From positions 2,492,501 to 2,556,500 of the forward strand of contig NZ_JOMG01000002.1 in the NCBI RefSeq assembly GCF_000711225.1: 64,000 nt of DNA, written 5' to 3'. Origin of the DNA: Pelobacter seleniigenes DSM 18267. Its GTDB lineage: Bacteria > Desulfobacterota > Desulfuromonadia > Desulfuromonadales > Geopsychrobacteraceae. The notes beneath the pieces are model-generated. The model worked only from the letters and a program-made list of their open reading frames with translations, searched no databases and had not been told where the DNA came from. How positions within the stretch are numbered: position 1 is the first letter of the stretch; every line of letters starts with the position of its first letter. Below are positions 21,325 to 55,239 of this stretch, piece after piece. The position numbers and the translations under genes were made by a program.

Positions 21325-22926
21325 TTACTCCTTTTTCCGGCGCAGATGACGCATTGCCGTATCCGCGATTTCGACCACCCCCTCAATGGTTTTACGATAG
21401 AGTCGACGAATCGGGACATCGTTGATGCTGAGCTCGCCATCGACCTGTTGCAGCTGAATTTTATCGCCGTATTTCAGGCCCTCAAGGGAAGCCGCAGTTT
21501 CCGGGGCGACGCCGATCAAAAAGCGGTAGTTCTCGCTTTCATGCTTTTTGGAAAAAACCAGCAGGGTGCGTTGGGCTTTTCCGGTGCGGAAATCGAACCG
21601 TGAGGTTTTGGCCAGTAACTTGGCCGTGCATTTATGTTCCTTCCCCAGTATCGTTTCCAGGGTGATGTCGGCCGGTTTCAGCCGGCCGAGTAGCGGTCTG
21701 CCCTCTGGCCGATAGGGTACCGCCCCACGGCTGAGAAACTGCTCCTGGGTTTCCAAGAGGATGACGACGTTATTGTTGATCGGCCCGCCGATGGAATGGG
21801 ATAGGGCTGCCTGGTAATCGCCGCTGACGAGCATTTGATGATTTTCAACGATCTGGACCATTCCGGTTGCGCCGAGGGGGTGGCCGCGGCCTTTCAGACC
21901 GCCGGTGAGGTTGGTCGGAAACAGTCCGCTCGGTCCGGTCAGTTTTTCATCGAGCAGCCCATCCAAAAGATTTTTACGGGGAACAACACCAAGGTCAACT
22001 AAGTTGATGGCACCGAAGCCGTTAAAGGGGTCGTGCATGTTGATATGGACGGGAGTATTCAGTTCGTGCAGGTTTTTAAGCCCGGCCATGCCCAGCGCCT
22101 GAGCCAAGGCAATGCGAGTCGCCGGAAAACTGGTGTAGGTCAGGCGATCCGCAATGGTCGGGATGTCGGTGCCGGAGCCAACCCCTGACACCCGGACCCG
22201 GCTCTTCTGCGAGGTCAGCAGGCAGGCCGCAATTCCGTCGGACATGGGGCAAAAATCGTAATAATGGAGAGGGTCGTAATACAGATAATTTTTCCCCCCA
22301 TCCATTTCTGCCAGATACTGCTCTGCCGGGATTTCATAGTTGAGATGAGCGTTGGGGTTTTGTGCGGCATAGTGATGGGACCGCTCGGTCCAACGCGAGG
22401 TATAGTGGCTCCATTTTTCCAGACTCAAGCCGAATTCCTGGATCAGGGACTGGGCAACCAGCGCTCCGCAGGCAGGCATGGTCAGCCCGTATTCGGCTTC
22501 TTCCCGGTCGATGACCCCGGCGACTATTTTGGTGGCTTCACGGGTTGAGACATCACTCATTTTCTGAATGCCGAGGGCCAGGACATGATCATGTTGCCCG
22601 GATGCGACTTCCATGAAAGCCGCTTCAAAAGCGCTAGCTCCCGAGGAGGATGCGGTATCGACCAGAACGGACTTTGCTCCGCTGATCCCGAGCCGGCCGC
22701 TGACCTTAGCCGCAACATTGTCGATCCCTGAAAAAGCAAACGGATTCTGGGAGCCGACCACAACACAGCCGATGCGGTCCTTGTCGATTTTGGAATTGTT
22801 CAGTAATGGCTGAAGTGCGTCGACCAGTTCGAAAAAACTCATTTTGGGACGGTGTCTACCGTTGTATTTGCCGACGGGCAGCATGAAAGAGTCTGCCAGG
22901 TAAACTGCGCGGGGTTGAAAAAACAT
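21325..22926 (-). CDS. thiolase-superfamily protein lacking the catalytic cysteines
   Basis: Protein of 533 residues. Residues 1-390 follow the SCP-x/thiolase fold, with HDPFNGFG (296-303) and GHPLGATG (346-353). At the position of the nucleophilic cysteine (C-x-S-G) the sequence reads S93-S-S-G, and the second cysteine motif (C-I-G-G-G) is S376-I-G-G-P. Both thiolase cysteines are thus replaced by serine. About 140 C-terminal residues form an extra domain I cannot name. ATG 22926 has GGAGGT upstream. It could be a degenerate thiolase, a hydrolase-like variant or a binding protein; classical thiolase activity is doubtful. Confidence 0.8.
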   Translation of the reverse strand: MFFQPRAVYLADSFMLPVGKYNGRHRPKMSFFELVDALQPLLNNSKIDKDRIGCVVVGSQNPFAFSGIDNVAAKVSGRLGISGAKSVLVDTASSSGASAFEAAFMEVASGQHDHVLALGIQKMSDVSTREATKIVAGVIDREEAEYGLTMPACGALVAQSLIQEFGLSLEKWSHYTSRWTERSHHYAAQNPNAHLNYEIPAEQYLAEMDGGKNYLYYDPLHYYDFCPMSDGIAACLLTSQKSRVRVSGVGSGTDIPTIADRLTYTSFPATRIALAQALGMAGLKNLHELNTPVHINMHDPFNGFGAINLVDLGVVPRKNLLDGLLDEKLTGPSGLFPTNLTGGLKGRGHPLGATGMVQIVENHQMLVSGDYQAALSHSIGGPINNNVVILLETQEQFLSRGAVPYRPEGRPLLGRLKPADITLETILGKEHKCTAKLLAKTSRFDFRTGKAQRTLLVFSKKHESENYRFLIGVAPETAASLEGLKYGDKIQLQQVDGELSINDVPIRRLYRKTIEGVVEIADTAMRHLRRKKE

Positions 22927-23211: not shown

Positions 23212-24126
23212 TTAATCGAAATTTTCGCTTTCGGTCAGCGGGAGCGTCACGCTGAAGCGGCTTCCCTGGCCAGGGGTTGAGGAAACGCTGATGGTTCCAT
23301 CGTGGGCTTCGACAATCCATTTGGCGATGGACAGACCGAGGCCTGATCCGCCGTCATTACGGTTAAGGGTTTTATCAACCCGGTAAAAGCGTTCGAAAAT
23401 AAGTTCCAATTCTTCTTGGGCGATGCCGATGCCGCTGTCGCTGATCGTTATTCTGACCTGGTCCCGATCGGTCAGTTCGATATCTATCCCGACCTTCCCC
23501 CCCGCGGGCGTATATTTGATCGCATTGGTCAGCAGGTTTAACAGGACCTGTCTCATTCGCAGGTTGTCCGCAAGAATAAAAATATCCTGGCGGGGGCAGT
23601 TCAGGTCTACGCGGATACTTTTTGCTGCAGCCAGCAATTGGGCCTGGTGGTGCAGTTCGACAATAAGCTCCGGCAGATAGATGGGCTCCATTTTTAAAGG
23701 AATCTGTCCCAGGTCGCTTTTGGAAAGCAACAGCAGGTCCTCGATCAGGTAGCTCATGCGACTGATCTCTTCAAGGTTTGATTCCAAAACCTTTCTGAGT
23801 TCTTCCTGATCCCGTCCACTGCGCAGGGCGAGCTCTGTTTCGCCGCGCAAAATGGTCAAAGGCGTCCGCAATTCATGGGTAACATCTGCCGCAAACTGTC
23901 TTGACCGGCGCAGATTGTTGGCCATTCGCTCCATCAGCGCATTATAGCTTTGGGCCAGCTCCTGGACTTCTGCAGGATCGGTACTTTCCGGAGTGAAAAA
24001 GAGGGGCTCAACTTCCGGATCGGTTTTATTCATGAGCTGAATCAGGCGATTGATGGCAGATGCCTTTGCATGTTTATATTTTCGCTGCTGGTTGTTTGAG
24101 CAGGTCAATGCGATTGTTCCTCCCAA
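23212..24126 (-). pseudogene. sensor histidine kinase missing its N-terminal sensor and membrane part
   Basis: The 304-residue frame from a TTG holds the end of a HAMP-like linker (DPAEVQELAQSYNALMERM), the HisKA motif FAADVTHELRTPLTILRGE, and a complete ATPase domain (NLLTNAIKYTP, SDSGIGI, GGSGLGLSIAKW). CusS-like kinases normally have about 430-480 residues with two membrane helices; here there is none, and only 117 bases separate it from the response regulator stop. An in-frame TGA lies six codons before the TTG. It is either a soluble kinase or, more likely, the product of a deletion of the sensor region. The catalytic core looks intact. Confidence 0.65.
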
Positions 24127-24242
24127 TAATAATATGGGTCATCTTGGGGTGGTGGCGATTGGCCGGCTGTTTGTTGCAGAGCAGGCCAATCAATTCTCAA
24201 TATTTTCTTCATCATAAATGCAGATGACCCTGGAGACCAGGG

Positions 24243-24917
24243 TCAGTCCGAATCTTTCAGGACATAGCCGACGCCCCGGACGGTATGGATCAGTTTTTTG
24301 TCGAAATCACGGTCAATTTTTTTCCGCAGATAATTGACATAGACGTCAATGATATTGGTAAAGGAATCGAAGGTGTAGTCCCAAACATGTTCAGCGATCA
24401 TGGTTCGAGTCAGAACCTGATTCGGGTTCCGCATGAAGTATTCCAGCAGGGCGTATTCCTTGGCGGTGAGGTCGATTGGCCGGTTATTGCGCCAGACATT
24501 GTGGCCAACCGGGTCCAGCCGCAGATCGGCAAAATAGAGTTCGGCCCCGCGGTCCTGTGAGCCACGGCGGATCAGGGCTCTGACCCGTGCCACCAGCTCG
24601 GCAAAGGCAAAAGGCTTGGTCAGGTAGTCATCACTGCCGATGTCCAGGCCGGATGCGATATCCTCAACGGTGTCCTTGGCGGTCAGGCACAGAATCGGGG
24701 TCGAGATGTTTTTTTCACGTAACTCCTTGATTGCACTCAGGCCGTCTTTCTTGGGTAGCATGACATCCATCAGAATAAGATCATAACTGGAGCTTTCCGC
24801 CATGGCGATACCGCTTTCGCCGTCATGGGCAACATCAACAGTAAAATCTTCTTCTTCCAGGCCCCGCTTGATAAAACTGGCGACCTTTTTTTCGTCTTCG
24901 ACAACCAGGATCCGCAT
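24243..24917 (-). CDS. OmpR/PhoB-type response regulator (CusR-like)
   Basis: Regulator of 224 residues. The receiver domain spans 1-118 (VVEDEKK acidic pair, phosphoacceptor in LILMDVMLPKKDG, lysine in YLTKPFAF). A winged-helix DNA-binding domain covers about 130-222 (LTAKEYALLEYFMRNPNQVL and HTVRGVGYVLKD). It resembles heavy-metal or envelope stress regulators of the CusR group, but no metal-resistance genes adjoin. ATG 24917 is preceded by AGGAG. Its kinase partner, encoded immediately downstream, appears truncated. Confidence 0.92.
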   Translation of the reverse strand: MRILVVEDEKKVASFIKRGLEEEDFTVDVAHDGESGIAMAESSSYDLILMDVMLPKKDGLSAIKELREKNISTPILCLTAKDTVEDIASGLDIGSDDYLTKPFAFAELVARVRALIRRGSQDRGAELYFADLRLDPVGHNVWRNNRPIDLTAKEYALLEYFMRNPNQVLTRTMIAEHVWDYTFDSFTNIIDVYVNYLRKKIDRDFDKKLIHTVRGVGYVLKDSD

Positions 24918-25212
24918 CAATGAGTCTCCTTTTGGTCAATGCCGTTGCACCTGTATCTAGTGGTGCGGAATATTAAAAACCCCGCCACCAATTTGTTGAA
25001 ATGGGTTTGGTAAAGGGTTGGTTTTAATCTGAAAAAATAATATCATGAGGTTTTACTAGCTCAGGCTCATGAAAATCAGATTAAACTTTAGCAGAGTCTA
25101 AAAAAGTGCGCAAGGGCAATGATAGATTCTTTTAATTATTTTTGTTTATGGTCAGAGTGTACAAATTTACTGATTCCTTATTGTTTTCATTGATAGATTC
25201 TGTTAATTAGTG

Positions 25213-54063: not shown

Positions 54064-55239
54064 TTAAACAAGTTCAAAAATTGCGGCAACGGCTTCGCCG
54101 CCGCCGATGCAGAGTGTTGCCAGACCGTATTTTTGCTGACGGGCTTTCATCTCCCGCAACAGGGTTGCCACCAGGCGTCCGCCGCTGGCGCCGATGGGGT
54201 GGCCGATGGAGACCGCTCCGCCGTTGACGTTGACCTTGTCGGCCGTCAGGCCCAGTTGTTTGATAGCGACCAGCGGCACGGCGGCAAAGGCTTCATTGAT
54301 TTCAAACAGACCGATGTCGTCGAGTTGCAGTCCGGCCCGGGCACAACAGCTGCGGATGGCGTCGACCGGAGCTTCGGCGAATTTGTCCGGATGGATACTA
54401 TTGGTGGTGCTGGCGACGAGCCGGGCCAACGGTTGCAGATTGTTGCTTTTGACCGCCTGCTCCCCGGCCAGAATGGCCAGGCCGGCACCATCATTGATGG
54501 TCGAGGCGTTGCCGGCGGTGATGGTACCGGTCTTGCTGAAGACCGGCCGCAGTTCGACCAGCTTGTCGATGCTGCCACGGAATGGTTCTTCATCTTCACT
54601 GATGGTGATATCCCCCTTGCGGGATTTTTTCACCACCGCAACCAGTTCGTCCTGGAAGGTGCCGTTTTTAACGGCCGCCTGCGACAGGCGGTAAGAACGC
54701 ATGGCAAAGTCGTCCTGCTCGGCGCGGCTGAGGCCGTGACCGGCAACCCAGTCTTCAGTGATTTCACCCATGTGCCGTTTGCTGTACGGATCCTGCAGGC
54801 CGTCATAGACCACCAGGTCGAGCATTTCCCCGTTGCCGAGACGCTGCCCGAAACGAGCGCCGGGGAGGGCGTAGGGGGCCTTTGACATGCTTTCCATACC
54901 GCCGGCAATAACAATTGAGGAGTGCCCCAGGGCAATGGCGTCGGCGGCCAGCATCATCGCCTTGAGGCCGCTGCCGCAGACCTTGTTGATGGTCATGGCG
55001 TGAACGCTGTCGGGGAGTCCGGCGTTGCGCATGGCCTGCCGGGCCGGCGCCTGTGCCGAACCGCCCTGCAGGACCTGGCCGATGATGACCTCATCGACCA
55101 GGTCTCCGCTCAACTGGTTGCGTTGCAGCAATTCTTTGATGACCTGGGCCGCCAGTTCAGGAGCGCTGACATCAGACAGGGAACCACCGAAAGAACCAAA
55201 CGGGGTTCTTAAAGCGGATACTACAAAGACGTCTTTCAT
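54064..55239 (-). CDS. atoB: acetyl-CoA C-acetyltransferase (thiolase)
   Basis: Thiolase of 391 residues, splitting acetoacetyl-CoA to two acetyl-CoA. Nucleophile C88 in NKVCGSGLKAMM, NVNGGAVSIGHPIGASGGR and the second catalytic cysteine in LCIGGGEAVAAIF are all present, with EAV replacing the usual QGV/MGV. It is first in the ketone-body operon, with the sigma-54 promoter at 55284-55299 and AGGAGG before the ATG. Compare the cysteine-less thiolase-like protein at 21325-22926. Confidence 0.95.
   Translation of the reverse strand: MKDVFVVSALRTPFGSFGGSLSDVSAPELAAQVIKELLQRNQLSGDLVDEVIIGQVLQGGSAQAPARQAMRNAGLPDSVHAMTINKVCGSGLKAMMLAADAIALGHSSIVIAGGMESMSKAPYALPGARFGQRLGNGEMLDLVVYDGLQDPYSKRHMGEITEDWVAGHGLSRAEQDDFAMRSYRLSQAAVKNGTFQDELVAVVKKSRKGDITISEDEEPFRGSIDKLVELRPVFSKTGTITAGNASTINDGAGLAILAGEQAVKSNNLQPLARLVASTTNSIHPDKFAEAPVDAIRSCCARAGLQLDDIGLFEINEAFAAVPLVAIKQLGLTADKVNVNGGAVSIGHPIGASGGRLVATLLREMKARQQKYGLATLCIGGGEAVAAIFELV

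Follow-up and report, generated by a model that had tools for sequence, protein, structure and literature searches.

A thiolase-like protein with serine at the nucleophile position and a fused C-terminal OB-like domain, conserved in much of a bacterial class

Introduction

What can a thiolase-like protein do when both of its catalytic cysteines are gone? The question is raised by a gene on the minus strand of a 64,000-nucleotide stretch of the Pelobacter seleniigenes DSM 18267 genome (hereafter the window). There, an open reading frame (ORF) at 21325..22926, with an AGGAGG ribosome-binding site directly 5' of its ATG, encodes a protein of 533 amino acids (P0001) in which the ORF, sequence profiles and an AlphaFold2 model together indicate a serine-bearing thiolase-like part and a C-terminal OB-like domain. 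Only general thiolase names fit this protein, though its gene is widespread and mostly single-copy, and automatic annotation as acetyl-CoA acetyltransferase would add a wrong thiolase step to metabolic models of the organisms that carry it. Here we describe the protein's anatomy, its conservation and its relatives, and weigh the functions that it could have.

Results

Pfam profiles pick out the two thiolase halves (Thiolase_N, E 5e-17; Thiolase_C_1, E 2e-12), with scores above the cut-off for PF00108 (62.5 bits, cut-off 26.4) and PF22691 (47.7 bits, cut-off 28), which bears out the thiolase-like assignment made in a preliminary description of the locus. The C-terminal thiolase half is of the Thiolase_C_1 type, and the protein falls in the Thiolase_C_1/SCP2-like (archaeal/SCP2-type) branch. 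None among the best 25 of the 42 NCBIfam models matched reached its cut-off; the nearest of these 25, PRK06064 ('thiolase domain-containing protein'), scored 190 bits against the 420 needed. An AlphaFold2 model built from a 61-row alignment (mean pLDDT 91.4, pTM 0.92) was used instead of an earlier one built from 15 close rows (mean pLDDT 44.8). Its best structural match is the archaeal acetoacetyl-CoA thiolase 6esq_A (Z 51.8, rmsd 1.9 over 369 residues), in a whole-model structural aligner search that is mainly a test of residues 4-396, and profiles and model place the thiolase-fold core at residues 5-395 (21742..22914, minus strand). The protein at 54064-55239, used as the intact thiolase in the preliminary alignment, is indeed an ordinary acetyl-CoA acyltransferase by profile (TIGR01930, E 1e-127).

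Class-wide, 125 of 277 genomes have a match at 1e-100. One copy is found in 124 of these carriers and two places in the remaining one (G600), for a total of 126 orthologous places, two of which (in G643 and G533) have one in-frame TAA inside the match. These places comprise 124 alignment rows minus four duplicates (L049/L178, L050/L157, L051/L193 and L052/L213), plus six that were read pairwise because the longest ORF there lies in another frame. In the window's own order, 18 of 136 genomes were matched at 1e-20, 16 of them full-length; by subtraction of order counts from class counts, 109 carriers remain among the 141 genomes that belong to the class but not to this order, the Geobacteraceae contributing four records there. 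A search of 60 relatives, the window's own genome included, returned 25 with a match at E <=0.001, 15 of which are full-length. The extra C-terminal domain is present in 27 of 27 orthologues compared in detail. For three close pairs of these orthologues (hereafter G1), dN/dS in the thiolase part is ~0.04-0.06 (0.041/1.049, 0.015/0.290 and 0.031/0.524), and one pair from the sister clade G2, described below, gives a dN of 0.017 and a dS of 0.129. The OB domain of the same G1 pairs evolves faster (0.120/0.992, 0.075/0.418 and 0.102/0.773); in the remaining pairs measured, synonymous sites are near saturation.

The nucleophile elbow reads A92-S93-S94-S95-G96 (22639..22653, minus strand). Pairwise, multiple and profile alignments all place Ser93 on the nucleophilic cysteine of Cys-bearing relatives, in agreement with the S93-S-S-G of the preliminary description, and a shifted motif alignment at this site is thereby ruled out. 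Ser93, Ser94, Ser95 and Gly96 are invariant in 126/126 orthologous places, so that the nucleophilic cysteine (CxS) of competent thiolases is absent from every one. The possibility, raised at the outset, that close homologues mostly keep the cysteines does not hold: neither catalytic cysteine is kept in any of the 126. Ser93 is encoded by 26 TCN codons and 1 AGC among 27 G1 genes, and the nucleophile codons of 21 G2 genes are 15 TCN, 5 AGC and 1 TGT (Cys). Since two serine codon families are used, the residue was retained, or restored, as codons changed from one family to the other.

The second catalytic site has to be read differently from the preliminary description, which took it to be 'S376-I-G-G-P' and concluded that both cysteines had become serine. 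The stretch concerned is S376-H377-S378-I379-G380-G381-P382 (21781..21801, minus strand), so that the residue meant is Ser378. This serine is not a former catalytic cysteine, because its position holds Asn in 19 of 20 ordinary Cys-bearing relatives (G3, which include a protein of the window's own genome) and Thr in the other, and because the second cysteine of this branch lies in HDCF; the misreading arose from comparison with a classical biosynthetic thiolase, whose second cysteine is in CxG. All 20 G3 proteins have Cys at the nucleophile and HDCF. The HDCF cysteine, proposed to act on the enolate in SCP2-type thiolases (PMC12329534, available excerpt), corresponds to Pro300 of the H298-D299-P300-F301 motif (22024..22035, minus strand) in the window protein and in 126/126 orthologous places. 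On the alignments, both catalytic cysteines are thus lost, one to Ser93 and the other to Pro300, and with Pro300 and Ser378 in 126/126 places the second cysteine is absent by either scheme, HDCF or CxG. Both histidines of competent thiolases are present throughout, His298 in the motif just named and the catalytic His349 in G348-H349-P350 (21877..21885, minus strand); the retention of HDPF and GHPLGATG noted earlier was correct, at residues 298-301 and 348-355. His298, Asp299, Pro300, Phe301, His349 and Ser378 are invariant in 126/126 places. Of the two serines first singled out for a conservation check, Ser93 is invariant and Ser376 is not, being Ala in 19 of 124 alignment rows and in one of the six places read pairwise. 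From sequence and model we assign with high confidence an anatomy of thiolase fold plus OB-like domain, both catalytic cysteines replaced and both catalytic histidines kept.

The window's own genome (L026) also encodes, at C2:969624-970628, an ordinary Cys-bearing SCP2-like thiolase with HDCF, of 418 amino acids.

The C-terminal domain, about 140 residues long as first described, can no longer be called unexplained: its strand order is that of an OB fold, and its profile similarity to the DUF35-type OB domain of the sister clade G2, if weak, is above that of shuffled profiles. In the model, residues 421-507 (21406..21666, minus strand) form strands 432-444, 451-462 and 465-473, a helix at 475-481 and strands 489-495 and 498-501. 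The extension of the G1 proteins matches PF01796 (OB_ChsH2_C, the DUF35 OB fold) in 0 of 15 proteins scanned at E up to 1, and that of G2 does so in 19 of 20 at the same threshold, the best match being 2.8e-8 and the first G2 member scoring 21.6 bits against a cut-off of 27.1. Among 11 genomes with G2, the PF01796 match of the G2 protein exceeds the cut-off in 4 and falls short of it in 3; in the remaining 4 it is not listed. Compared with each other, the G1 and G2 extension profiles give an hhalign score of 24.9, which none of 100 column-shuffled comparisons reached (mean 11.8, sd 2.3); hhalign's own probability for the pair is 14.6%. The extra domain is best explained, on profile comparison and the modelled fold, as a fused and diverged DUF35-type OB fold.

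When 15 G3 genomes were searched for PF01796, 13 proved to have the Cys thiolase gene followed immediately, on the same strand, by a separate DUF35 gene; of the other two, one (G348) has its thiolase at a contig end, and the window's own genome has no PF01796 hit. Six G1 genomes, again including the window's own, gave 0, 0, 0, 0, 0 and 1 PF01796 hits, the single one elsewhere in its genome. Because the G2 extension is PF01796-like and a separate DUF35 gene stands beside 13 of 15 Cys thiolases, a thiolase and its DUF35 partner were probably fused and both catalytic cysteines lost, a direction of change that we infer from sequence comparison. Fusions of DUF35 with thiolases have been noted before (PMC2954200, partial text).

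The sister clade came from a phylum search in which 55 of 395 genomes had a match at 1e-20. All 62 places were read: 10 are G1 orthologues, 22 full-length G2 (open frames of 494 aa or more), 1 a fragment and 29 without a C-terminal extension. The nucleophile position of full-length G2 proteins is Ser in 21/22 and Cys in one, never Ala or Gly; the fragment, at a contig end, has Ser as well. All 22 have Ala at the HDCF cysteine (HDAF) and keep the GHP histidine, and 21 keep His298 (Asp in L136). Both cysteines are kept in 29/29 of the extension-less matches. Within this search, loss of the position-300 cysteine goes with the extension without exception (32/32 with it vs 0/29 without), and loss at position 93 with one. 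The coupling is limited to the phylum search and is not valid superfamily-wide: in 11 more distant rows, all without the extension, the nucleophile is Gly in 4 and the HDCF cysteine is missing from 6. Judging from these rows, loss of a cysteine alone is not rare in the branch, and it is the fixed serine that is special. The stretch after position 395 is 135-143 residues long in the 27 G1 proteins and 108-159 in G2. In a tree computed without the motif columns, G1 and G2 (18 and 21 rows) lie on one side of a branch with support 99/98, G1 itself having 100/100 and G2 97/81. A single origin of the two clades is therefore likely, if not proven, on a tree whose branches are long, whose root is at the midpoint and whose rows all come from one phylum.

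Two further forms came to light among the relatives. The single G2 protein with Cys (TGT) at the nucleophile (L091, in G410) has the extension and HDAF, and represents either a half-way state or a reversal. A single-domain thiolase-like clade of the window's order (L020, L021 and L028) is also Cys-less, with GGGATGG replacing CxSG and with HDAY.

Gene types in the neighbourhood (regulators, gcvT, gcvP, dehydrogenase, hydrolase and metalloprotease) are readings of translations, made independently of family searches. In most Desulfuromonadales loci the gene is preceded by a histidine kinase and an OmpR-type regulator and followed by a GntR-type regulator and a kinase/LuxR pair; across 19 loci the neighbour clusters c4, c1, c5, c6 and c8 recur in 13, 15, 13, 12 and 11, respectively. 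The regulator clusters are missing from the four Geobacteraceae loci among those compared. A beta-hydroxyacid-dehydrogenase-like gene is found in 8 of 18 loci outside the window's order, directly upstream in 7 of them, and a gcvT-like gene lies downstream in 4 of the 18 (L112, L113, L114 and L241), with gcvP-like genes near. At L243, L249, L250 and L108-L111 the dehydrogenase-like gene is mostly of 288 aa, on the same strand and, in most, ~80 bp away. The 16 G2 regions, compared by relative orientation only, share no neighbour between different lineages; two neighbour clusters, nucleotide-hydrolase-like and metalloprotease-like, occur in 6 of the 16, all from one bacterial family (f31). The thiolase cluster itself was found in 15 of these regions, and in L105 it was hidden by an overlapping ORF (later read as L262). 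As a guide to substrate, the order loci, the 18 loci outside the order and the 16 G2 regions name none, the context differing between lineages.

Discussion

The job of this protein is very likely different from that of a thiolase. The reading that we favour, with a probability that we put just short of even, is Ser93-dependent acyl transfer or hydrolysis on an acyl-CoA-binding thiolase fold that has given up Claisen chemistry; it draws on sequence comparison and on analogy with characterised relatives. The thioester of an acyl-CoA or an acyl-carrier would still be bound in the thiolase pocket, and loss of the HDCF cysteine would remove the acid/base for the enolate, and with it Claisen condensation and thiolysis. 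Ser93 sits in the nucleophile elbow and should, judging from thiolase homology, be near His349; it could then accept the acyl group as an oxyester and hand it on to an alcohol, an amine, a carrier or water, by analogy with DpsC-type enzymes. The OB domain may shape the CoA/acyl entrance, as DUF35 subunits do in two-gene complexes. Because the histidines and a hydroxyl in the elbow are kept and the enolate cysteine is gone, transfer or hydrolysis through acyl-Ser93 fits better than condensation.

Several observations count in favour of Ser93 chemistry: the invariance of Ser93 and both histidines in all orthologous places, together with serine in all but one of the full-length G2 proteins and in the fragment; the use of serine through both codon families with dN << dS; and the loss of the second cysteine without loss of His298 or His349. 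Natural precedents exist as well. The solved structure of Sulfolobus tokodaii ST0096 (4yzo) shows a natural thiolase fold that has Ser at the nucleophile position and a motif, HDMA, that lacks the HDCF cysteine; this protein has 373 aa and no C-terminal domain. The DpsC-type priming ketosynthases (daunorubicin) to our knowledge lack an OB domain, belong to a KASIII-like branch and use a Ser-His-Asp triad, so that the likeness is a mechanistic analogy only. What they have in common with the window protein as we picture it is a thiolase fold with a natural Ser and a His partner, which in these ketosynthases serve acyl transfer to a carrier protein; the S118-H297-D302 triad of DpsC self-acylates and transfers acyl groups, according to the accessible part of PMC12664062. 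Other observations count against catalysis by Ser93. Engineered C88S variants of PhlC (PMC6392133, in the portion available) and CsATase (PMC12955522, likewise an extract) are inactive, and since Cys-to-Ser mutants of PhlC-type acyltransferases are dead, a working serine would call for surroundings that those enzymes lack. An acid partner for His349 was not found, and the gene neighbourhood, which varies from lineage to lineage, points to no substrate. Among the 11 outgroup rows, 4 are single-domain paralogues from the window's order with a Gly nucleophile, so that loss of catalysis is not rare in the branch, and TLP1, of similar two-domain plan, is inactive as a thiolase.

These points against catalysis lend some credit to a reading that we regard as possible but doubtful, namely that the protein is a non-catalytic acyl-CoA binder (sensor, chaperone or scaffold) whose serines only hydrogen-bond the thioester. 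Besides the dead serine variants of relatives, a model for it is offered by TLP1/STLP1 of Mycobacterium smegmatis (PDB 4egv), which has a thiolase fold, a fused C-terminal beta-barrel and no nucleophile cysteine, and which has no thiolase activity according to the text available from PMC3406046. Among the best 50 Foldseek rows, 4egv is the sole near-whole-model alignment (522-528 columns, TM-score by query 0.66-0.67), at 18-19% identity; with an rmsd of 6.0-6.4, domain placement may differ. MsTLP1 is not among the listed sequence matches to solved structures (one listing giving the best 60 of 98), nor among the best 50 rows of the structural aligner search. Its fingerprints also differ: a Gly nucleophile, YSCF, GGL (hence no GHP His) and NGG (PMC3406046, same excerpt), against Ser, HDPF, GHP and SIGGP in the window protein, in which YSCF, GGL and NGG are all absent. 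Two-component and GntR-type regulator genes flank the gene in most Desulfuromonadales loci, and in that order a binder might inform the adjacent two-component systems; yet none of the four Geobacteraceae loci compared has the regulator clusters, and most carrier genomes lie outside the window's order. A binder should, moreover, tolerate Ala, Gly or Thr at position 93, where serine is found in 126/126 orthologous places and in 21/22 G2 proteins.

It is improbable, in our judgement, that the protein is a lyase, a retro-aldolase or decarboxylase on hydroxyacyl- or malonyl-type CoA working through His298 and His349 and not through serine, in the manner of Sal, Ltp2 and possibly T. brucei SLP (TbSLP). 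The comparison is natural, as all three are non-thiolases built on an SCP2-like thiolase fold; aldolase activity and pairing with DUF35 domains are known for Sal and Ltp2, Sal having a Gly nucleophile (PMC12329534, in the passages available), and both are among the fold matches of our model. Their motifs are, however, YDCY/YDHF/YDCF where the window protein has HDPF: the catalytic Tyr of YD[CH][YF] is His298 here (126/126), the catalytic Cys of Sal is Pro300, and an invariant Ser93 would be left unexplained. That the gene is a decaying thiolase or a chance single-genome case, for which nothing beyond the cysteine loss speaks, can be dismissed given its presence in 125 of 277 genomes, the invariance of its motifs and dN << dS, and here the preliminary argument for a new activity or a binding role over decay was sound, with 0/126 places retaining a cysteine and the extra domain in 27/27 orthologues.

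The enzyme that the model matches best in structure is the Methanothermococcus acetoacetyl-CoA thiolase (6esq/6et9), which belongs to the same branch and works with a DUF35-family subunit (PMC6392133, partial text). Unlike the window protein, this enzyme has a Cys nucleophile and HDCF, and it works in a complex in which DUF35 forms a subunit of its own and HMG-CoA synthase also takes part. A broader hypothesis, which we find attractive but consider rather more likely wrong than right, is that of a natural serine thiolase, widespread in the class and in other members of the phylum. This fusion of thiolase and OB domain would form acyl-Ser93 from acyl-CoA, transfer or hydrolyse the acyl group, and have given up carbon-carbon chemistry when DUF35 was captured in cis. 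Nothing is new in the fold itself, in the partnership with DUF35 or in thiolase-like proteins that lack the cysteines. To judge from a literature search limited to open-licence papers, which found none on this family, the novelty lies in a fused, serine-bearing protein family that keeps its histidines and is conserved in much of a bacterial class. A fused partner and the loss of both cysteines, together with a two-gene Cys version persisting in relatives, mark out a course of evolution that bench experiments could test.

Some minor features of the locus and its relatives deserve mention. The histidine kinase gene at 23212-24242 of the window, between the OmpR-type regulator gene (24243-24920) and the serine thiolase gene, encodes 304 aa, and the same kinase has 465-492 aa in 12 of 14 other loci and 307 and 355 aa in the other two. 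Kinase and regulator are spaced by 116 bases in the window; given the short length and so little room, the N-terminal sensor part of the window kinase seems to be missing. Three partial relatives were also seen. One (L063, in G128) covers the last 85 residues at 47% identity and is probably cut by a contig end, and another (L064, in G124) consists of two pieces in different frames, at 28% and 49%. The third (L023, in G003, 1483-1596) matches over ~30 residues at 80% identity (E 6e-11), and the open frame around it spans just 111 aa; in this genome, which belongs to the same family, it may be what is left of a lost copy.
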